DNA of 45,357 nt from Verrucomicrobium spinosum. GTDB taxonomy: Bacteria > Verrucomicrobiota > Verrucomicrobiia > JADLBR01 > JAIBCM01. The position numbers were made by a program, and so were the translations under genes. Positions 8,305 to 39,103 of the stretch are shown here, piece after piece (position 1 is the first letter of the stretch; each line of letters starts with the position of its first letter). The stretch spans positions 29,275 to 74,631 of the forward strand of contig DYRQ01000001.1 in NCBI GenBank assembly GCA_020718645.1. The letters are read 5' to 3'. The notes below the pieces were generated by a model. It was not told where the DNA came from. It searched no databases and saw nothing but the letters and a program-made list of their open reading frames with translations.

Positions 8305-8703
8305 ATGGCCGATATCCTTTTTAACTGTTCCAACTGTCAGACAGAGCTGGTCGTGGATGCCGAAGGAGCTGGACTTGAAATCGAATGTCCGAACTGCGGC
8401 ACAGCCTTGATCATACCCGATGGTCCTATCATCGAATCCAGCGAGGCGTCCGAACCCGAAACCAATCTGATCTATGACACCATAGTCTTGGAGGTAGAGC
8501 CCACCCCGGAGCAGCTCATGGCTGCCGATGGGGAACTCGCTGCCCAGCCTGAACAAGACTACTCGCACGAAGCCATAGTTGGCCTCAACAGTCTCACCCA
8601 ACCAGAGACAGCAAAGCCACCTCATTTAGATCAACAGCCTGTAGGGGCCACCCAGAAAATCACCCTACCCCCGCGCCGCCCCTTCGGCTCGCGGAGCCGG
8701 TAA
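8305..8703 (+). CDS. Zinc-ribbon N-terminal protein, function unknown
   Basis: FNCSNCQTELVVDAEGAGLEIECPNCGTALIIP, i.e. two CxxC pairs. Confidence 0.6.
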   Translation: MADILFNCSNCQTELVVDAEGAGLEIECPNCGTALIIPDGPIIESSEASEPETNLIYDTIVLEVEPTPEQLMAADGELAAQPEQDYSHEAIVGLNSLTQPETAKPPHLDQQPVGATQKITLPPRRPFGSRSR

Positions 8704-8724
8704 AACTAAAAGGAGAATCGAGCC

Positions 8725-9258
8725 GTGCCCGACATAGAATTCCAATGTCACCAGTGCGGCCTTGATCTCGTCGTTGATCAGGAAGGTGCTGGCCTTGAAA
8801 CCGAGTGTCCTTCCTGCTCGGCTATCCTACTCATCCCAGAGCCATCTGTCTCTTTTGCAGAATCCCCCACAGTTCACACCACGGCAGTCCCAGCATTCCC
8901 TACCCAAGAAAGCATCCGCCACACAGCGCCGATCCACATTGCCCTAGAGCAAACGCGCCCGGTGGATCCCTCCCATTTCTCTGAGGCAGACACCACCAGC
9001 AAGCGCACGCCCAAAAAACCTTTTGCCCCGTTTGCTGGCAAACAAAGCAGTTTTGAGCCTGCACCCTCCGCCCATCGGCCACCCATGACTCCGCTGGCCA
9101 CTGCGGATGACATCGTCATCCTGTCCCCCGAGAAGAAGCGCAAGGAGGTCGTGCGTGCCGACCACAGCATGAGCGTATGGAAAATGTTTTTTTACCTCGT
9201 GCTGGCGATCGCGTGGCTCACCTCCCTGACCACCTTTCTCAATACACGCTCGTGGTAA
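8725..9258 (+). CDS. Zinc-ribbon N-terminal protein with C-terminal transmembrane segment, paralog of the preceding gene
   Basis: FQCHQCGLDLVVDQEGAGLETECPSCSAILLIP parallels the upstream ORF. C-terminal hydrophobic MFFYLVLAIAWLTSLTTFL. GTG start. Confidence 0.6.
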   Translation: MPDIEFQCHQCGLDLVVDQEGAGLETECPSCSAILLIPEPSVSFAESPTVHTTAVPAFPTQESIRHTAPIHIALEQTRPVDPSHFSEADTTSKRTPKKPFAPFAGKQSSFEPAPSAHRPPMTPLATADDIVILSPEKKRKEVVRADHSMSVWKMFFYLVLAIAWLTSLTTFLNTRSW

Positions 9259-11520: not shown

Positions 11521-12333
11521 TCATCCTGCGCTACTTCGAGAGTATTGCCGCTCATGAAACCAGTAGCAAATTGCTGTGACGAGGAGTCCAAGCACAAAAA
11601 AACTGGCGTATTGTAAAAATTGTTTGTCGAGAGAGGCTTTTTCCTCCGCCTTCCATCCGGTGCGAAGCACGAGATAATCGTGCAAAACATCATGGTCGAA
11701 TCGGACGAGGAGTCGGAGCGAACTCCCTGTCGGCGCGAGTTTTTTCAGGGAGTCCAGCGACTTCACTTTCACAGGAAGAACCCGGTCTGCGTCGAGGGTG
11801 ATTTGCTTATTCACCGACCATGAACGGTTGGGCGCGATCAGATCTCCGACGATGACTGGTTTAGTCCGATCCAGCAACTGCCTATCCGCTGTTTGGATTG
11901 CGGCTAACGCTATCGCTGATTTGGCTCTCACGCGGTAGGAGTGACTATCAAAAATGACAGCGGGAGCAAACTGTGCCTCCTTGACGATCAGGCGCGCTTC
12001 TTCGTAGCGATCCGGCTCAGAAACTCTAATGCGCTGCTCGTAGGTGTTGATCAAGCAGAGGGCAGCAACAGCGATGAGGTAGAAGGCTGCCCCAAAGAAT
12101 ATGGAACCCCGGTGGCTTTTTCTCTCCTCCTCCACCACCCGTTCTGGAGTGACAAGTGTAGAGAGATTCATCCAAGGTGCTACGGCGTCATCCGCATCTC
12201 GGATCTTGGTGTTGTCGTGGATGATCTGCCTTTGATACAAGTCCAGCAAGGCGGGCCAGCTTAACGGACCTTCGAAGTGAATACCATCTGTCGTGTAAAT
12301 ATACGAAGCAGACTCCATGCTGGGCTTGGGCAT
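11521..12333 (-). CDS. GYF_2-domain membrane protein
   Basis: YIYTTDGIHFEGPLSWPALLDLYQRQIIHDNTKIRDADDAVAPWMNLSTL is GYF_2-like. Two hydrophobic segments follow. Confidence 0.6.
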   Translation of the reverse strand: MPKPSMESASYIYTTDGIHFEGPLSWPALLDLYQRQIIHDNTKIRDADDAVAPWMNLSTLVTPERVVEEERKSHRGSIFFGAAFYLIAVAALCLINTYEQRIRVSEPDRYEEARLIVKEAQFAPAVIFDSHSYRVRAKSAIALAAIQTADRQLLDRTKPVIVGDLIAPNRSWSVNKQITLDADRVLPVKVKSLDSLKKLAPTGSSLRLLVRFDHDVLHDYLVLRTGWKAEEKASLDKQFLQYASFFVLGLLVTAICYWFHERQYSRSSAG

Positions 12334-12425: not shown

Positions 12426-15383
12426 TTACTGCTCTTCGTAAACCAGAACCGTGGCCGAGACAGGAGGCAGTTTCAGGCTGTAGTTGTTCGAGAAATCGCT
12501 CTTCTCTTCACTCTCGATTTTGTAGAGCAACTCATCGCGGTTGGTAACACGGGGATCGTGGTAGGCCAGGCGATGGATGGAGACATGGGTTCCCGCAGCA
12601 TGGGGCAACACTACCTTAGCTGTGCGCGTATCGGAATAGCACCTGTTCAACAGGAGAAGAGAATGTTTCTTGCCATCTTGGAAGGCGTAACAGGAGACCA
12701 TGGGGACATTCTCGCGTCCCTTGACCTTGACCTCTTGTTTCTCGCCTTTCCAGTTCATCTTCATGGCGATCGAATCAGGGATGGTGATGGTCTTGACCTC
12801 CTTGGGCTGGACAGACATCAGATCGCCTTGGCAGTAGCGGTTGCGCAACTCGAGCGCCTGCCATCCGGCGAAGGGTCTCATGGTTTCCCCGTCGGTATGG
12901 CTGGTCCAGTTGATTCCTGTCTGGAAGTTGAAGTAGCCCTGTGGCCCATCGAAACCAAAGTCATGCAGCCAGATCATGTGCATATCCAGCGTTGCGATGC
13001 CGAGAGCCAGCGATTTACCGACCTCCTCACTCTCGTCTATGTAAGGTCTATCTGCACTGGGCAATGCGTATCCTGAACCATATTCATAGATAGCGATCCC
13101 CATATCTTTGTCCGTGCCAGAGGGTGCCCGGCCTTGAGCTGCCCTCGCAGCGACAACCTCGTTCATCTGAGGTGCCACTACTTGGTAGGGATAGAGCAGT
13201 TGGCGCTGGAACATGTCGGCATCATTGCCTCCCAAGACAGTGAAGCCATCCCATCCACCGATGTAATTGGCCACCGCCAACATATCCGCTTCTATGGCTC
13301 CCTTGATCATTCCATTGGTATAGGAAGGATTGTGGGAGTGTCCTCCTGCGATGAAATCAAACTTGTCCGCTTGATAATGTGGGCTCTTCTTCATCGCCCG
13401 ATACATGCGGTTGGCCAAGGCTGCATGGCGCTCGGGTTTAGCTGGGAATGATAGCGGATCAAAAACGGGGCTATTCCAACACTCGTTACCCATCTCGATG
13501 TAGATCTTCTTGAAGACCTTGGTCCATGGCTCGACTTGCCCGTGTTTTTCAGCGCGGATTTTCCCATAGGTAGAATTGGCTGGGCCGCCCAGGTATTCGA
13601 TCAGTCCCAGACACTCCTCCTCTGTCAAAAGGAAGGTATTGATCCACGGGTTAGCGCCAACCTGCCGGGCGGCATCCAGCAGGGTGAAAAGAGAGCCTGC
13701 TGTCGCAGGCCCCATATTCGCCTGTTTTCCTTTGCCAACGAACATGGATTTTTCCGAAAAGTCTTTTTGCAACACAGAATCCAGGGTGCGATAAAATTCG
13801 ATGCCTTGGGCCAGGTATCGAAGACTCTCGGGCTTCCAGTTTTGCAGCGCTTTCTGGTATTGGGGGAGGAATCGGAAGGGCTCGACCCCTTCCTCATAGA
13901 CTACAAAATTATCCACCCAGAGCGTGCCCCCTCCCGATGAGTAAATACCGAGTTGCTGGAGTTTCTCTGGATCCGGCTGATAATCGAAAGAGAGGGAATA
14001 TTTTTTCCACTCTTTACCCACTGGAATATTCTGGCTGCCGAGATGGCCCAAGGTCAGGGTCACCTCTCCGGCAACGCCCTCCTGCTTCATCCAGATATCG
14101 GCCAGATATTTTTTACCGGGCGTCAGGCGGGTCCAACCTTGTTTGTCTTGTATGAAATGGTGTTCGATCCCGCCCTTTTTGCCAGATGGCAAAGCCATGC
14201 GTAAACTCCGGGTGCTGCCGCCCTCTGGAGCATGCGTGGCAGCGTCCAGCTCCACCGCTGTGCCTTCCACAATCCCCATGCCTTGGAAAGTCTTCCTATC
14301 GCTGCCTAGGCAACTGGGTAAGTTGTCCCGCTCCATAGTGAGCAGATAGAGATCTCCCTCCTGCGTCGCTTCAGGTGCCGGGCTGTCGTAGTATAAGCGC
14401 TCTTCTTTATCTCGCTCTACGACCCATTTTTTCACCTTCCCCTTGTGGATTAACTCATAATAATCCCCTTTGATCCGGTAAACCTCGAAGTCGCCACCAT
14501 CCCAAAACCCAGTCGGAAAGGTCTGCCAAAATCCCAAGCCTCCCCGACCACCAGCGTAGTTATGCTCGATATAATCTACAGTGCTCACGCTTTTTTCGCC
14601 CACGACATTCATGTGCCGGAAGACTATTGGCTCGAATCCCGCTTGCCTGTTCCAGATATTGGTCATCCGATTGCCTTTCCAATGGGAGAAAGAATCGAGA
14701 ACGATGTTGGCGCCCGAGCCGGGAGCCGACTTCATTTTGACCTCTGTGCCCACCTCAAAAACATCTTCTTTCGGATCTTTGACCACCTTGAAAGCTGAGT
14801 CGGAATACTTGGCTCGCTCTTCATCGGAAATTTGGAGTTTTTTCACAGCCGCGTTGTCTGCCATCTCTGGGATACCAGCCAGCTTCCGCTCGATATTGAT
14901 CAAAGACTCCCCATTGATCGCGGCGCAGGACACGACTCTATCGGCAAAAATGACATCAACATCGAGAATGTAGGGATACGCCTTGAGTCCATTATCGGAG
15001 ACCTTGCGGATATCTACATCGAGCAGATATTCTTTGCCTATCTCCAAGGAGCCGAGGGTGAGATATCGGGTAACCCCCGCTGTGCCCTGACCCTCAGCCG
15101 CAGCTTGGGAGACATCGGCCTTGCCGCCAGTCTCCTTTTGTCCTGTGCGCCTGAAATTGTATTTGATGAAGCCTTCGTTAAAATTTTTCCCATCGGGTCT
15201 CATCTTGGCTCGCAGGAGGAAAGCCATGCGTCCCTCAAACTGGTTGACGAACACGCCACGCATCTGGGTCTTGCCCGGCTGGAGTTTAGAGATAACTATT
15301 TCCTCTTGAGCCAAGGCTGCCACAGGCAGCAGGGCGAGGAGGGAGAAAATGCAGGTTAATACCAAAGTAAAACAGCGACTCAT
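12426..15383 (-). CDS. Large secreted GH-A clan glycoside hydrolase, GH51 alpha-L-arabinofuranosidase-like, with an internal CBM-like domain
   Basis: Signal peptide; EYLGGPANSTYGKIRAEKHGQVEPWTKVFKKIYIEMGNECWN (GNE acid/base motif); AIYEYG (candidate nucleophile); beta-rich C-terminal domain. Confidence 0.65.
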   Translation of the reverse strand: MSRCFTLVLTCIFSLLALLPVAALAQEEIVISKLQPGKTQMRGVFVNQFEGRMAFLLRAKMRPDGKNFNEGFIKYNFRRTGQKETGGKADVSQAAAEGQGTAGVTRYLTLGSLEIGKEYLLDVDIRKVSDNGLKAYPYILDVDVIFADRVVSCAAINGESLINIERKLAGIPEMADNAAVKKLQISDEERAKYSDSAFKVVKDPKEDVFEVGTEVKMKSAPGSGANIVLDSFSHWKGNRMTNIWNRQAGFEPIVFRHMNVVGEKSVSTVDYIEHNYAGGRGGLGFWQTFPTGFWDGGDFEVYRIKGDYYELIHKGKVKKWVVERDKEERLYYDSPAPEATQEGDLYLLTMERDNLPSCLGSDRKTFQGMGIVEGTAVELDAATHAPEGGSTRSLRMALPSGKKGGIEHHFIQDKQGWTRLTPGKKYLADIWMKQEGVAGEVTLTLGHLGSQNIPVGKEWKKYSLSFDYQPDPEKLQQLGIYSSGGGTLWVDNFVVYEEGVEPFRFLPQYQKALQNWKPESLRYLAQGIEFYRTLDSVLQKDFSEKSMFVGKGKQANMGPATAGSLFTLLDAARQVGANPWINTFLLTEEECLGLIEYLGGPANSTYGKIRAEKHGQVEPWTKVFKKIYIEMGNECWNSPVFDPLSFPAKPERHAALANRMYRAMKKSPHYQADKFDFIAGGHSHNPSYTNGMIKGAIEADMLAVANYIGGWDGFTVLGGNDADMFQRQLLYPYQVVAPQMNEVVAARAAQGRAPSGTDKDMGIAIYEYGSGYALPSADRPYIDESEEVGKSLALGIATLDMHMIWLHDFGFDGPQGYFNFQTGINWTSHTDGETMRPFAGWQALELRNRYCQGDLMSVQPKEVKTITIPDSIAMKMNWKGEKQEVKVKGRENVPMVSCYAFQDGKKHSLLLLNRCYSDTRTAKVVLPHAAGTHVSIHRLAYHDPRVTNRDELLYKIESEEKSDFSNNYSLKLPPVSATVLVYEEQ

Positions 15384-20792: not shown

Positions 20793-20865
20793 CACCCCAC
20801 TTATTCCTCAGCGATGTGACAGAGATGAAATGTTTTTGATACAGTCAAGCACCACCCTGCGCGAC

Positions 20866-21656
20866 ATGTATGCAGCAATCAGGTATTCAGTCTGCGCGGT
20901 GTTACTAGCTCTGCTCTCGTTCCATGCCAACGCTCAAGAACCCGAGACCATCACGCTGGTCGGAGACTCTTGGATGCCTGTCAACGGCGAACCCAATTCG
21001 CCTATGGAGGGCTACATGGTCGAGATTGCCAGAGCCGCTTTTGAACCTTACGGATACAAAGTTATCTATGAACTCATTCCTTGGTCCAGAGCCTTACTCG
21101 AGGTGAAAAACGGCAGGTGGCATGCCATTATTGGAGGCATCTTGACCAGGAACGCCGTGAGTATCTGGTATATCCCAAAGAGATTATCAATAAGATCACC
21201 AGCTCGTTCTTCAAGCGCAGCGATGATCCCTGGCACTACAGCGGCATCGAAAGCCTCAAAACACTTCGCCTCGGCATCATTAGAGATTACCAATACGAAG
21301 TGACGCTCGACCGTTATCTCTCCTCAGCACCACCAGAGCAGATACATGTGGCTCATGGTATTGACGGGCTCGGCGAGCTGATCAATATGCTGCACAATAA
21401 ACGCTTCAGAGCGTTGGTAGAAGATGAGGATGTGTTCCGTTTCAAAGTCCAGTCCATGGGGCTGGCCTCCTCAGATTTCGCCATGGCCGGACGCCTCACA
21501 GCAGCAGCCCCCATCTACATCGGGTTTTCTCAAGCCTACCCACACAGCCAGAAGCTTGCAGACATTCTCGATGAAAAAGTGCGCTCCATGAGAGCTAGCG
21601 GAGAGCTGGAGAAAATCTTTCAAAAATACAGCGTCAAAGACCGCTCTAACGAATAA
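20866..21656 (+). pseudogene. Frameshifted extracellular solute-binding protein, family 3 (SBP_bac_3)
   Basis: Frame 1 reads signal peptide plus VGDSWMPVNGEPNSPMEGYMVEIARAAFEPYGYKVIYELIPWSRALLEVKNGRWHAIIGG. Homology continues in frame 0 (DQERREYLVYPKEIINKITSSFFKR...). The shift lies near 21125-21165. Confidence 0.75.
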
Positions 21657-25694: not shown

Positions 25695-28600
25695 CTACTG
25701 CACCACAGGTGGAATTGCTTCGGGATCTAGATTCTTCTTCTCATGGGTTTTCCACAAACCGCCGACAGAAAAACGCGACCAAGCCCACCGGATCCACTCC
25801 ACCATGGAGTGTGCCAACCACAAAGCCCACACCAGCATCAGCACGCGGTAGAACCAGATGCTCACCGAGGCTGCGCCGACAACTGGCAAGTCGCTGGCAA
25901 CGGTAGGTTGATACCATGAGAGTAATTTCGCTGAGGAATCCTCGCCGCCAATCCACATTTCAGGATCACCGAGCAGCCCGACCCCAACTACCTGCACCAG
26001 CGATCCGAGCATCCAGAAAGTCAGGAACACCAGCGCTAACTGCCGAAGGTTATACAGCCAGGGAGTGAGACCACTTACCGCATCTTTACCCCGGTGCAAC
26101 AAGAGAAAAAACCATGTGGCAATGACTAGGGCTGCGACAAAATGAACTTGGGTTAATCCTACTGACAACAGCATCCACTGGAGACTACCGAGCGGTGAGG
26201 ATGGCAGGCGTGACAAGAACCACGCAGCAACAAGAGCACACAATAAAATCACCCACAAGCGCACCGCAGGCCCGCGCACCGGACCACTGGCCCACAATGT
26301 CCACCGGCTTTCCGGTATGTGAAACTTGGTGGTTATGTTGGCAGCTGCCACTGGCAATTTCACGGCGTCGCCCCGCTGCCAGAAACCGAGTTCCACGGTG
26401 GATTTCCAGCGGATTTCCAGCTCCTGTGACCCAGGGTGAAGCGGCACGATCAGCTTGCCTTTTTCCAAGCGAATAGGGAGATCATGTCCATCTCTGGATA
26501 AACGCTCGATCTCGATCCCCTCCCCTTCTTGCCCGATGGTAATGGGGAAATCCTCCCCCGTGCTGGATTGCACGGACAAAGCGAGAGTGGAGGCGCGATG
26601 ATGCCTGCCCACTTGCATCTCGTGCTGGGCGCGGTGGACGGTCATCGTCGGGCCTGCAACTTGCTCGGGGCGACTGATCTCCATGGCAATTGTTTCGCCG
26701 GGCCACGGGTTCCAGACCGGGGTCAAATCACTCGCATTTTTTTCGAAAACCGGTTCAAGCCCCGAGAGGGTGACATTCCAGATTGGGGAAGCCTCGAGCC
26801 TCCACTGCTCTACCCAGCGAGCATCCTGCGCTGCGTGCAGCTCGATCTTCGGGAGTGTATCGAGCGAGCTCTCCCACGACACCTGGCTCTCCCGCTCGCT
26901 CATGCGCACTCGGATGCGACCGGACTCTACGGGGAATTGTGCGCTCAACACTTTCTCACCGGCCAGCAGCGGGAGTTCAAGCGAGAGAGCTGCCCCAGCA
27001 GGAGTGAACCGCTCCACGGTAGTGCTCACCTTCCAGACAAGACCGAGTTCGATCACCCGTCGCACTCGGACGAGTGACTGGTAATCCCGTTTTTCGAAGC
27101 GCTCTGATTCGAGGGATGGATTCCTGACCGCACGCTGTTTTTTGGAAAAGAAAAGCTGCCCCTCGGCCAAGCCTTGCTCATCGAGACCGCTCACTGTCCA
27201 CTCATCACTTCTGACGCTCAGCGACCTAGGCTTGAGCGGTAGTGACAAACGCCACTCCTGGACTCCGGGCAACGCGGCTTCGATATGAGCTTTGTGAATG
27301 CCCTGTGGCAGCGAGATCCAAAGAGCGTGCTCCTTCCGCAAGAGGGGGACACGGGCGCCATCGAGAGTCACAGACACTGGCGCCCACTCGGGCAACCCCC
27401 CGGGCAAAGGCACGGCACAGGCTGTGATGGCATGCCACTCTGCGTCCAAGGTTACTTTCCCATCCAACATGATTATTTCAAGAAAAGCTAGATCCGCCAG
27501 TTTGCTTGGCTTCGCCTCCATCTGGAGCACCCGCTCCCGCAGTGTCTCCAGCGTTGGCTTGTCCGGAATCACCCCTTGGGCAACCGCCTGCCCATGCCAG
27601 AAAACAGCAGCCAATAACACCACCGCAGGTGCTGTTTTTCGGGCCGCCATCAGCAGTGGGTTCCAGCACCTGCGCAGGTCGAGCAACAGCGCCAGCAAAC
27701 CGAGCAGAAGCAGGGCGCGTATGACGGAAAGTGGGCGTTGCACAGAAGGCGGCATCCAGAGTGGCACCACTTGGTGTTCGGGTGCCACTGGGCCATCCCA
27801 CGAACAGACCAAGGGCGTCCCCCAACTCCACTCGGGCACGCCAGGCCCTGTCTGCACTTTGGCTTTGGGTTCTTGTGCAAGATTTTTTTTGCGCTGAGGC
27901 ATGCCGGCGGCAGAGGGGGTTGCTTGGTAAAATTGCTCGGATACTGAGGATACGACATCCATTTTTCTCGCTTTCGCAGGCACTGGCATCGGCGCAGGGG
28001 CGGCTGGCAGAGCTGCCTGTGCCGCATCCAGATCCTGTGCCATAAATGCTCCCCGCTGCACAAACTGGGTCTGCCCACCACTGTTCTCCAGTTGCGGGTA
28101 TAGAGCCCCCTGCACCAGAGCGATGCAGAACGGGATCAACACCCACAACAACACCACGGTGGCACCGTATCGCAACACGGTGCATACTTGGCGAAATAAA
28201 CCCTGTGGCACAGCCCGCTCCACCACTACAGCCGCCATCAGCGCCAGCCAAGAATAGCGCGGGGCTCCCGGCTCGTGCCATGCCAAACCCAGCGCCACAA
28301 ATGTCACCAGCCCAGCCTGCCAGCCCCAGACGCGGAAGACAGCAAGTGCACCGACCATGACAAGGAAAAGATCCAGCAGCGTCCAATGAGTGATCCAGTC
28401 CCCTGTGCTGCGATCAGCACCTAGGACAGCCCATGTCCTCCACCCTGGCGGCAAATGAAACACCATCTGCAAACCATCGGCTCCCACCTGCCAACCCGAG
28501 GCGGCGATAGCGCTGGAATCTGCCCTGCCCACAGCCTCGACCGAAAGCGTGCGCGTGCGCACTTCGAACCCCGGGGCTCCCGTGACAGGATTGAGCGTCA

Positions 28601-29804
28601 CCAACTGCGGCTCCCCATCCATCCGCACTGATCCTAGACGGTTTTGCGGACTGCAATCCAACCTCCAAAATTTCTGCAAATTGCCAGACAAGGTGTCGCG
28701 CCATGTCAGCGATCTCCCATCTTCATCGAGCCAAAGAACTCGGTTGATCTGGATATCCCCGTTGCTTTCGATCCCCATGCCACGCAGTTTTTCCACGATG
28801 GCAAATGCCGTTCCCGTCTCCCACGCATAGATAGGCCACTGCTTCCACGCCTCGGGAAACTGCACCTGACTTCCATCCACTGTTGGAAGACCGGGAACCT
28901 CAATAACACGGAAATCTGGAGCCGGTTTTACAGCCACCAATTCAGTGCCACCTCCGGGCCGAACCCCTGGCGCAAAAGAAAAAGAAGCCCATGAATCAGT
29001 GCGGAAGGCATCCACCTCAATCTTGAAACGACCCGGTCTCACGCGCACGGTCGCTACACCTTGAGCATCCACGACGACAGGCAGGGGACCGCGCACGGCT
29101 GAAACCTGCCATCCCTCAGGGATGAGGCTTCCGAGCGACTCTTCCCGGGGTTTTCCCGACACGGAAAGCTCCACCTGCGTGCGCAACCAAGTCGGATTAC
29201 CGTCTTCCAATAAGCGCCAAGTTTGAGATGAGACATTGTCTTGCGTATTGTCTGTCACCCCAGCAGAAACCCTGCGTTTGAGCCACACTCTGCCACTGGC
29301 GTCTCGACTCGGAAACTCGACAAGCTTCCCCTCCAACCAGAGAGAGATCACACCGTAGTTCTCAGGGACAAGCAACGACTCCGGCATCTGCATCCACGGC
29401 AGCACTCCCTCTATCCTGTGCGTCCCCGGCATGAGACGAACACAGGGCAATAGCTCATGCTCCACCACTGGCACGGGGATGCCGCCCATCTTCACCTTCA
29501 CCGGCCAGATATCCTTGGTGCCGGGCAGCGTCAGCAGCACCTCATCACATGCCGTCACTTCCACAGAAAATTCGGCGCCAGTGGCTCCGGCTTTCACCAC
29601 ACACACCGAAGGCCAGAGCGGTAGCCGGACAGCCGGTTGGTCGTAGGCGGCTGGCACCGATTTGGGCAGATCATCCCATGTCGCCCACTCGACCCAATCC
29701 TTCAGTGCTTGGGGCAAAGACCGAGCTGGCTCCGCCGCTTGAGCTGAAAAGAGAGTCAACCACCAAGCCATGAAACACAGAATCACTGATAGTATGGGAC
29801 GCAT
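25695..29804 (-). CDS. Giant multi-spanning membrane protein of unknown function with internal duplication
   Basis: Single 1369-aa ORF with an N-terminal signal peptide and several transmembrane blocks. Repeated motif pairs lie about 706-718 aa apart (see findings). Confidence 0.75.
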   Translation of the reverse strand: MRPILSVILCFMAWWLTLFSAQAAEPARSLPQALKDWVEWATWDDLPKSVPAAYDQPAVRLPLWPSVCVVKAGATGAEFSVEVTACDEVLLTLPGTKDIWPVKVKMGGIPVPVVEHELLPCVRLMPGTHRIEGVLPWMQMPESLLVPENYGVISLWLEGKLVEFPSRDASGRVWLKRRVSAGVTDNTQDNVSSQTWRLLEDGNPTWLRTQVELSVSGKPREESLGSLIPEGWQVSAVRGPLPVVVDAQGVATVRVRPGRFKIEVDAFRTDSWASFSFAPGVRPGGGTELVAVKPAPDFRVIEVPGLPTVDGSQVQFPEAWKQWPIYAWETGTAFAIVEKLRGMGIESNGDIQINRVLWLDEDGRSLTWRDTLSGNLQKFWRLDCSPQNRLGSVRMDGEPQLVTLNPVTGAPGFEVRTRTLSVEAVGRADSSAIAASGWQVGADGLQMVFHLPPGWRTWAVLGADRSTGDWITHWTLLDLFLVMVGALAVFRVWGWQAGLVTFVALGLAWHEPGAPRYSWLALMAAVVVERAVPQGLFRQVCTVLRYGATVVLLWVLIPFCIALVQGALYPQLENSGGQTQFVQRGAFMAQDLDAAQAALPAAPAPMPVPAKARKMDVVSSVSEQFYQATPSAAGMPQRKKNLAQEPKAKVQTGPGVPEWSWGTPLVCSWDGPVAPEHQVVPLWMPPSVQRPLSVIRALLLLGLLALLLDLRRCWNPLLMAARKTAPAVVLLAAVFWHGQAVAQGVIPDKPTLETLRERVLQMEAKPSKLADLAFLEIIMLDGKVTLDAEWHAITACAVPLPGGLPEWAPVSVTLDGARVPLLRKEHALWISLPQGIHKAHIEAALPGVQEWRLSLPLKPRSLSVRSDEWTVSGLDEQGLAEGQLFFSKKQRAVRNPSLESERFEKRDYQSLVRVRRVIELGLVWKVSTTVERFTPAGAALSLELPLLAGEKVLSAQFPVESGRIRVRMSERESQVSWESSLDTLPKIELHAAQDARWVEQWRLEASPIWNVTLSGLEPVFEKNASDLTPVWNPWPGETIAMEISRPEQVAGPTMTVHRAQHEMQVGRHHRASTLALSVQSSTGEDFPITIGQEGEGIEIERLSRDGHDLPIRLEKGKLIVPLHPGSQELEIRWKSTVELGFWQRGDAVKLPVAAANITTKFHIPESRWTLWASGPVRGPAVRLWVILLCALVAAWFLSRLPSSPLGSLQWMLLSVGLTQVHFVAALVIATWFFLLLHRGKDAVSGLTPWLYNLRQLALVFLTFWMLGSLVQVVGVGLLGDPEMWIGGEDSSAKLLSWYQPTVASDLPVVGAASVSIWFYRVLMLVWALWLAHSMVEWIRWAWSRFSVGGLWKTHEKKNLDPEAIPPVVQ

Positions 29805-34581: not shown

Positions 34582-35541
34582 ATGGACTACTACCTCCTCA
34601 TCGGCGACGAGCAGTCTGGACCGCTCACCCCAGCACGGGTGCGCTCGCTCTTGGCCACTTTACCATCGGACCAAGAATCTTGGATCTGGTGCGAAGGCAT
34701 GGCTGATTGGCAGGATTCCGTTCAGTGGCTCCTCGACTCTTCCTCGGATGCCGTAGAAACTTATGAAGTAGCTGACAACTCCTCAACAGCTACTATCGAA
34801 GCCCAGCCTACCGATTATTTCGTGCTCCGCGGCGAGGACACCCTCGGCCCATGGAGCGAAAGCGATCTCGTTGCCCGCCTCCAAGCTGGGGAATTCCAAG
34901 AGACCGACCTTCTCTTCCAGGACGGCATGGCGGATTGGAGTCCTGTCGGCGATCTTTTCACCAAAGCACCCACCCCGACACGACTCGGTTGGCTGCTGGT
35001 CTGCGGAGGCACAGTCCTTGCCATAGCCGTCTCTGCTTTCATGGGTTTCAGCGCTCTTTCTCAGGGCAACCAATACGCCGAAACAGCCGCCCGCTTTCTC
35101 AACCGCGGCACTCCTACACAGGCTGACATCACTTGGGACGCTTGGATTGCCATGAACCGCGCGGAAATACAGATTGCGAAAACGCCCGACCTCATGGATC
35201 GCACTGCTTCAGCAATCTCTATTTACAATGCCATCGCCATCACAGGCGCAGACGAAGCCCTAGTTCAATTTCTTGGTCGCACCCTCGCCTTGCACAACCG
35301 CAGGCTCACCACCCTCCACTCCCTCCGCAGCGATCTATCTGCCATCCAAGAAAAATACCCCAACCTACCGATCAACCTGAACGCCATCGGCCTTCCCCCT
35401 GAAATTCAATCTGAGATCCAAGCGTCTGTTCAGTTGCACACTCCCGACCTCAAGACTGTGGACGATGAGTTCGCCAAACTTCACAAAGAGAAAACCGCTG
35501 TAGGGCGCACCCTCTCCCTCAAATACCAACGCCCTTTCTAG
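34582..35541 (+). CDS. Membrane protein with two tandem GYF_2 domains
   Basis: DYYLLIGDEQSGPLTPARVRSLL...SWIWCEGMADWQDS and DYFVLRGEDTLGPWSESDLVARL...DLLFQDGMADWSPV, then one TM segment. Confidence 0.7.
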   Translation: MDYYLLIGDEQSGPLTPARVRSLLATLPSDQESWIWCEGMADWQDSVQWLLDSSSDAVETYEVADNSSTATIEAQPTDYFVLRGEDTLGPWSESDLVARLQAGEFQETDLLFQDGMADWSPVGDLFTKAPTPTRLGWLLVCGGTVLAIAVSAFMGFSALSQGNQYAETAARFLNRGTPTQADITWDAWIAMNRAEIQIAKTPDLMDRTASAISIYNAIAITGADEALVQFLGRTLALHNRRLTTLHSLRSDLSAIQEKYPNLPINLNAIGLPPEIQSEIQASVQLHTPDLKTVDDEFAKLHKEKTAVGRTLSLKYQRPF

Positions 35542-37757: not shown

Positions 37758-39074
37758 TTATTCGTCAGCGAGTGCGAAAGTCATCTCGCCTTCGGACACC
37801 ACGTCACCATTGACCATGCACTGGCCTACAGCCCTGCCGATCTTGCCACGCGAACGCACCAGCTCGACATGAATGTAGAGGGTGTCGCCCGGGCGGACCA
37901 TCTTGCGGAACTTCACCTTGTCGGCACTGAGGAAGTAGCCGAGGCGACCCGCACTGCCCGCCTGACGAAGCATGAGGATGCTGGCCACCTGCGCCATGGC
38001 CTCGACTTGAAGCACACCCGGCATGACAGGCTGCGTGGGGAAATGTCCGGGAAAGAAGGGTTCGTTGATAGTGACATTTTTGCAGCCAATGGCTTTGTTG
38101 TCTCCCTCGAACTTGATGATCCTGTCCACGAGCAAGAACGGATAACGGTGGGGCAGGATGCGCATGACCTCGTCTATGTCGAGGGCGCCTTCGCCAACGG
38201 GTATATTCTCCACAGGAAAGCGCATAGCCTCGCGCAGGCGGAAATGTTTCATCAGCGCCTTAGCCAACTCCACATTGAGTGCGTGACCCGTGCGCACTGC
38301 GACGATACGGGCTTTGAGCGGCTTGGGCAGAAGCGAGAGGTCGCCGATGATGTCGAGGACTTTGTGGCGTGCGAACTCGTTCTGGAAACGCATGGGCTCC
38401 TTGGTCATGACCGAGTCCCCGCGAATGACTACAGCGTTCTCGAGGCTGCCGCCTTTGATGAGCCCTTTTTCCATGAGTGGCTGCACCTCTTCGTAGAAGA
38501 CAAAGGTGCGAGCTGGGGCTATCTCTTTGGCGTAATTTTCCGGAGAGAGTGTGTAGTTGTGAAACTGCGTGTGGAATCCGGTGTGGGTGACATTCGTGCA
38601 AGAGACTTCGAAATGTTTGCAGGGAAGCGCGATCATGCAGGCGCCATCCTTGCCTTCGACAGAGACAGGCTCTTTGAGTTCGAGATACTCGCGGCGGGCG
38701 GATTGCTCGATGGTGCCAGCTTTCTGGATGAGTTCGACGAATTGCTTGGCGCTGCCGTCGCAGATTGGCGGCTCGTTAGCGTTCATGGAGATCACGGCGT
38801 TATCCACTCCGAGACCGCGTAGAGCCGACAGCACATGCTCGACGGTGTGAACTTTGATGTTGCCCTCACCGATCGTGGTGGCTCGTTCGACCTGCTTCAC
38901 ATTCTCTGCAAGCGCGGCCACTGTGGGCTCGTCTTTGAGGTCGGTTCGTTTGAAAATATAGCCCGTGTTTTCGGGTGCTGGGGAGAGGGTCAGCTTGACG
39001 GTGCCGCCCGTGTGCAGAGCTACGCCTTCGAGAGAGGCGGAACCCGCCAATGTCCTTTGGTTGTCCGATGTCAT
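37758..39074 (-). CDS. Bifunctional UDP-3-O-acyl-N-acetylglucosamine deacetylase / (3R)-hydroxyacyl-ACP dehydratase (LpxC-FabZ)
   Basis: Lpx[49 protein letters not shown]. Fab[38 protein letters not shown]. Confidence 0.96.
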
Positions 39075-39103
39075 CCGCACCCTTTACAGGCGACGCGGCA
39101 AAA

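Follow-up and report, generated by a model that had tools for sequence, protein, structure and literature searches.

Two subunits in a fixed ratio are normally obtained in bacteria by way of operons, and true polyproteins are, to our knowledge, rare there. As far as we know, the nearest bacterial precedent for the gene described here is fbcH of Bradyrhizobium japonicum, the precursor of cytochrome b and cytochrome c1, in which one ORF encodes two membrane proteins and an internal signal peptide is cleaved by signal peptidase. A second point of reference is the LptF/LptG type of inner-membrane pair, whose paralogous, pseudo-symmetric members carry periplasmic beta domains and are encoded by separate genes together with an ATPase partner.

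The 1369-aa protein encoded in the window (the whole stretch of 45,357 nucleotides that was analysed) consists, as sequence and profile comparisons indicate, of two colinear homologous units placed head to tail, and the duplication is real. We consider it likely that these duplicated units form a bacterial polyprotein, which signal peptidase I would cut into two paralogous five-helix subunits, made 1:1 and pairing as a heterodimer; such processing would resemble that of viral polyproteins. With a shade more caution, we also favour the wider reading that this is an undescribed polyprotein family, with duplicated units fused across phyla and signal peptidase I acting at a conserved internal site to give two subunits in a fixed 1:1 ratio.

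Gene, predicted topology and surroundings

The ORF comprises 1369 codons on the minus strand (an earlier, sequence-only reading of this DNA had named no strand), and the assembly holds a single copy of the gene. Topology was predicted from hydropathy averaged over the family and from the charges flanking the hydrophobic segments, the splitting of merged peaks into helices being our own reading. The parts are as follows.

25695..29804 (minus): whole gene of the two-unit membrane protein, 1369 aa, defined by the ORF and its full-length homologues
29736..29804 (minus): N-terminal signal peptide, aa 1-23 (..FSAQA/AEP, putative cut after A); 18% mean pairwise identity
28386..29735 (minus): unit 1 ectodomain, aa 24-473, homologous to its counterpart in unit 2 and predicted to lie in the periplasm
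28104..28385 (minus): unit 1 transmembrane helices 1-4, aa ~474-567, predicted from family-averaged hydropathy and positive-inside flanks
27897..28091 (minus): hypervariable Pro/Ala-rich linker, aa 572-636; 16% mean pairwise identity
27789..27869 (minus): conserved segment VQTGPGVPEWSW...W(N/D)GPV, aa 646-672; 63% mean pairwise identity; a loop ahead of helix 5, predicted to be periplasmic
27672..27737 (minus): unit 1 transmembrane helix 5, aa 690-711, predicted from hydropathy, with a basic loop after it
27579..27671 (minus): internal signal-peptide-like segment, aa 712-742 (RRCWNPLLMAARK-TAPAVVLLAAVFWHGQAVA/Q), where signal peptidase I is predicted to cut after A742; found in 33 of 33 homologues checked
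26259..27578 (minus): unit 2 ectodomain, aa 743-1182, predicted from profile homology and hydropathy to be periplasmic
25797..26258 (minus): unit 2 transmembrane helices 1-5, aa 1183-1336, predicted from hydropathy, then a short cytoplasmic C-terminus

In unit 1, hydropathy peaks mark the signal peptide (aa 4-18) and helices at about aa 474-493, 497-511, 517-532, 547-567 and 690-711, the stretch from the signal peptide to aa 474 being free of hydrophobic segments; those of unit 2 mark the signal-peptide-like segment (aa 724-738) and helices at about aa 1183-1200, 1207-1220, 1222-1237, 1254-1278 and 1314-1336. Basic residues lie on the predicted cytoplasmic side, most strongly in the loop that leads from helix 5 to the internal segment, where the charges average +2.97/-0.21. 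Each unit is predicted to comprise a signal peptide, an ectodomain and five helices, with its C-terminus inside, and a unit 1 that ends inside would leave unit 2 in need of a new export signal. In line with the family-averaged hydropathy and the profile alignment described below, the earlier suggestion that each half comprises an exported region and, after it, a membrane module was upheld. The ectodomains are probably beta-rich, to judge from the character of their sequence; two AlphaFold2 models, built with the window's own two units as the sole alignment, had pLDDT values of 34.8 and 32.5, too low to be informative. The Pro/Ala-rich linker occurs in unit 1 only, between two highly conserved regions, and has no counterpart in unit 2. 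In the conserved segment at aa 646-672, the residues Q651, T652, G653, P657 and W659 are invariant.

The genes flanking this one in the window, both on the opposite strand, encode an isoamylase-type debranching enzyme and, judged by eye, a glycine dehydrogenase-like protein. A comparison of 20 neighbourhoods with the window revealed no conserved gene neighbours of the family. Shared ORF families beside the gene were rejected as neighbours, since they appear to be shadows of this same gene, read in antisense or out of frame, the exception being a generic ABC ATPase-like cluster. Elsewhere in the window, a 440-aa protein (37758-39080, minus) with both an LpxC and a FabA domain of Pfam is a fusion of LpxC and a FabZ-type dehydratase; this fusion and the gene content as a whole point to Verrucomicrobiota as the probable host group. 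An exported 985-aa protein with no Pfam match (12426-15383, minus) resembles, by eye, a carbohydrate-active enzyme. Three small proteins (8305-9258, plus; 11521-12333, minus; 34582-35541, plus) have zinc-ribbon-like (two adjacent) or GYF_2 N-termini, a GYF_2 N-terminus being confirmed for the last (34582-35538) and the other two being judged by eye. Finally, a 157-aa protein (20830-21303, plus) gives a partial, sub-threshold match to the periplasmic solute-binding proteins of SBP_bac_3; it is apparently truncated, and its gene is perhaps decayed.

Homology of the two halves and spread of the family

The sequence-only reading had proposed an internal duplication from three motif pairs that recur in the same order at a nearly constant spacing, and had named a self-alignment of the halves as the check. 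This alignment proved significant by BLASTP, Smith-Waterman and hhalign. BLASTP matched aa 83-139 to aa 793-849 at 37% identity (E 1.4e-4 uncorrected, 0.002 composition-adjusted), motif pair 1 being the sole pair that is significant by itself in such single-sequence searches. The best Smith-Waterman path between the N- and C-terminal halves passes through motif pairs 1 and 2 and scores 78, as against a shuffle mean of 47 (sd 6), and none of 200 shuffles reached this score; BLOSUM45 gave the same answer, and with PAM250 three of 200 shuffles reached the score. When profiles of the N-terminal (aa 25-575) and C-terminal (aa 745-1356) parts, comprising 28 homologues besides the query, were compared by hhalign, the local alignment scored 58.8 (E 2e-6) and the global one reached E 3.2e-9, aligning 471 columns that begin with the ectodomain and end at transmembrane helix 4. 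These values stand well above the controls, in which 20 column shuffles of the C-terminal profile scored at most 23.2 (best E 0.09) and the reversed profile 22.3. Furthermore, tool-built alignments that were independent of our own script matched the two parts at E 8.7e-6 over 372 columns. Since the profile alignment ends at helix 4, the correspondence between the fifth helices of units 1 and 2 is by topology.

All three motif pairs are present and fall, in the same order, inside one colinear profile alignment of the halves, and the near-constant spacing holds, with offsets of about 708-718 aa (G127/G835, F449/F1161, W206/W924). Our own reading of the family consensus adds the matches W206-LRT/W924-KVST and P296-FR..GLP/P1007-WN..GLxP. 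It could be argued that the halves are non-homologous and that their likeness reflects convergence among exported membrane proteins rich in Trp, Pro and Gly, given the low pairwise identity (about 26% over the best part) and the fact that the first domain alone is significant in single-sequence BLAST. We regard this as extremely improbable: the profiles match colinearly (E 2e-6 to 3e-9) where shuffles score 23 or less, and all elements recur in the same order at the same offsets. Within one protein, units 1 and 2 share 21-30% identity (mean 26%), which is below the identity of either unit between phyla (33% for unit 1 and 32.5% for unit 2 when the window protein is compared with its Azoarcus relative), so that the duplication is probably older than every sampled member.

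As the sequence-only reading had anticipated, the layout belongs to no described family: the window protein had no match above cut-off in Pfam-A, NCBIfam or PHROGs, and sequence and profile searches of PDB sequences returned nothing significant (best E 0.1, implausible). Other members show scattered weak domain matches (best E 4e-4, to the middle domain of GH127, in 7 of 25 members). The family is undescribed, large, well conserved and outside present domain libraries, and the window protein fits it, having two homologous units of signal peptide, ectodomain and five helices and the QTGPG loop in unit 1. By protein search, members occur in both genomes of the taxonomic family, 4 of 5 of the order and 30 of 287 of the class, full-length members being present in about 10% of the sampled genomes of the class. 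A profile search across the phylum identified members in 3 of 291 genomes, one of them outside the class, and in that other class, where the family is rare, 2 convincing matches were found among 288 genomes. Every intact member is a full-length two-unit protein (1333-1395 aa, counted from the chosen start) encoded by a single-copy gene. Spread beyond the phylum was judged from plasmid and phage collections: the sole named relative is WP_015452075.1, a hypothetical protein on plasmid pAZKH (NC_020548.1) of Azoarcus sp. KH32C, with 33% identity over 91% of the length, and the phage records held no family member. No single-unit homologue was found in the genome searches within the phylum or in the plasmid and phage collections. 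One candidate of that kind (G154, 627 aa, E 7e-4) is, by eye, an unrelated glycosyltransferase-type multi-helix protein; two candidate split genes (G235 and G230) lie in pieces over several frames, with the break not at the junction, and reflect frameshifts or assembly errors.

The segment between the units

The most informative part of the protein, which the sequence-only reading overlooked, is the signal peptide inside the repeat unit: because the repeated unit includes it, an apparently cleavable internal signal peptide lies at the junction. Every member has the same layout there, namely a basic n-region, a short h-region of 10-15 hydrophobic residues, usually a Pro or Gly, AxA, and then mostly Gln or Glu, this last residue preceding a conserved Pro by two to four positions. 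A strict site, [AVTSLI]xA[AQEDGST] no more than 12 residues before the conserved P747, is present in 28 of 29 full-length members, as against a mean of 12.6 and a maximum of 22 of 29 in the shuffled null. The 29th (L019) has VRG/AE at the junction; an AxA-type site is found in all the others of the 33 homologues checked, among them four further members, three of which are partial genes and one the most divergent, with SRA/E, ASA/D, VRA/D and VSA/Q. In addition, when the roughly 1320 positions of each protein were scored with a weight matrix built from 41 signal peptides of unrelated genes at the same loci, the junction was among the best five in 24 of the 29 proteins and came out on top in 12. 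A helix-breaking Pro or Gly occupies positions -8 to -4 in 26 of 29 members (57% expected), and the +1 residue is Gln in most and Glu in most of the remainder. A looser rule-based scan flagged the junction in 25 of 29 proteins and also picked up motifs resembling cleavage sites where helices of unit 2 end (in as many as 22 of 29 near aa 1270 and 17 of 29 near aa 1220), so AxA by itself is unspecific. The case therefore rests on the combination of low conservation, signal-peptide-like hydropathy and the Pro/Gly and Gln/Glu context.

The same segment might instead escape cleavage and serve as a signal anchor, an eleventh transmembrane helix joining two fused halves of an intact chain, as in fused pseudo-symmetric transporters. 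A packed helix should match the other ten, whose mean pairwise identities are 41-69%, whereas the internal segment has only 19%, as against 18% for the N-terminal signal peptide, and varies in length among members; just downstream of the site, identity is back at 44%. What the segment keeps instead is the AxA, the Pro/Gly and the Gln or Glu at +1. Its hydropathy is 2.44 over 12 residues and 1.64 over 19, compared with 2.51 and 1.67 for the N-terminal signal peptide, and lies below that of all measured helices except the last. The predicted topology fits an intact chain equally well, and every member found is a single ORF, as expected if the fusion matters. In no genome did we find two separate genes instead of the fusion, yet such a split should be tolerable if the two chains separate, which is a counter-point to cleavage. 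Taken together, we consider an intact chain unlikely, although it is a serious contender.

Unit 2 might also, or only, arise as a separate protein if ribosomes initiated within the gene, shortly ahead of the internal signal peptide, for example at M719AARK, and the window protein does have a suitably placed ATG (MAARKTAPAVVLL). We think this very unlikely, since the family has no conserved in-frame start codon with a ribosome-binding-like site at the corresponding place; one member (L024) lacks any in-frame start codon there and others have misplaced ones only. Cleavage at the junction is the outcome that we favour, and the genome encodes a signal peptidase I (PF10502).

Proposed origin and comparison with described systems

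The halves are homologous, and the route to the present gene would have been tandem duplication and fusion. An ancestral gene may have encoded a signal peptide, a large periplasmic ectodomain and five transmembrane helices with the C-terminus inside; its duplication would have included the signal peptide, both copies then being fused in one reading frame. In the polyprotein that we propose, the N-terminal signal peptide would export unit 1, helix 5 would return the chain to the cytoplasm, and the internal signal peptide would restart export, so that the ectodomain of unit 2 also reached the periplasm. Signal peptidase I would most likely cut after the junction AxA, and since the cut acts on one translation product, two paralogous subunits would arise at a 1:1 ratio. 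These probably pair in the inner membrane to form a heterodimer with pseudo-symmetry. Because Trp, Pro and Gly residues are deeply conserved in both ectodomains and in the membrane parts, their role might tentatively be placed with structural or transport functions rather than with a variable surface function.

If true, this would be a clean natural case of Sec and signal peptidase handling an export signal after five transmembrane helices, and also of how duplicated membrane proteins stay paired. Annotation pipelines would call one 11-helix protein and so miss the second mature chain. The family also adds a large and well-conserved group of membrane proteins that is missing from domain libraries.

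Among its relatives, Azoarcus WP_015452075.1 resembles the window protein in being a full-length two-unit protein with the QTGPG segment and a signal-peptide-like junction (EAQA/Q), but belongs to a different phylum and has different gene surroundings. No sequence relation to LptF/LptG was found (no Pfam match); the likeness lies in two paralogous membrane subunits forming a pseudo-symmetric pair, as proposed for the window protein, whereas LptF and LptG come from separate genes with an ATPase partner and the window protein from one ORF. In the literature collection that was searched, no paper on comparable bacterial polyproteins was found. The window protein shares with fbcH the arrangement of a single bacterial ORF containing an internal signal peptide with a cleavage site, both of these being predicted from sequence in the window protein. 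The two differ in that the parts of fbcH are mutually unrelated respiratory subunits, whereas those of the window protein are paralogues.
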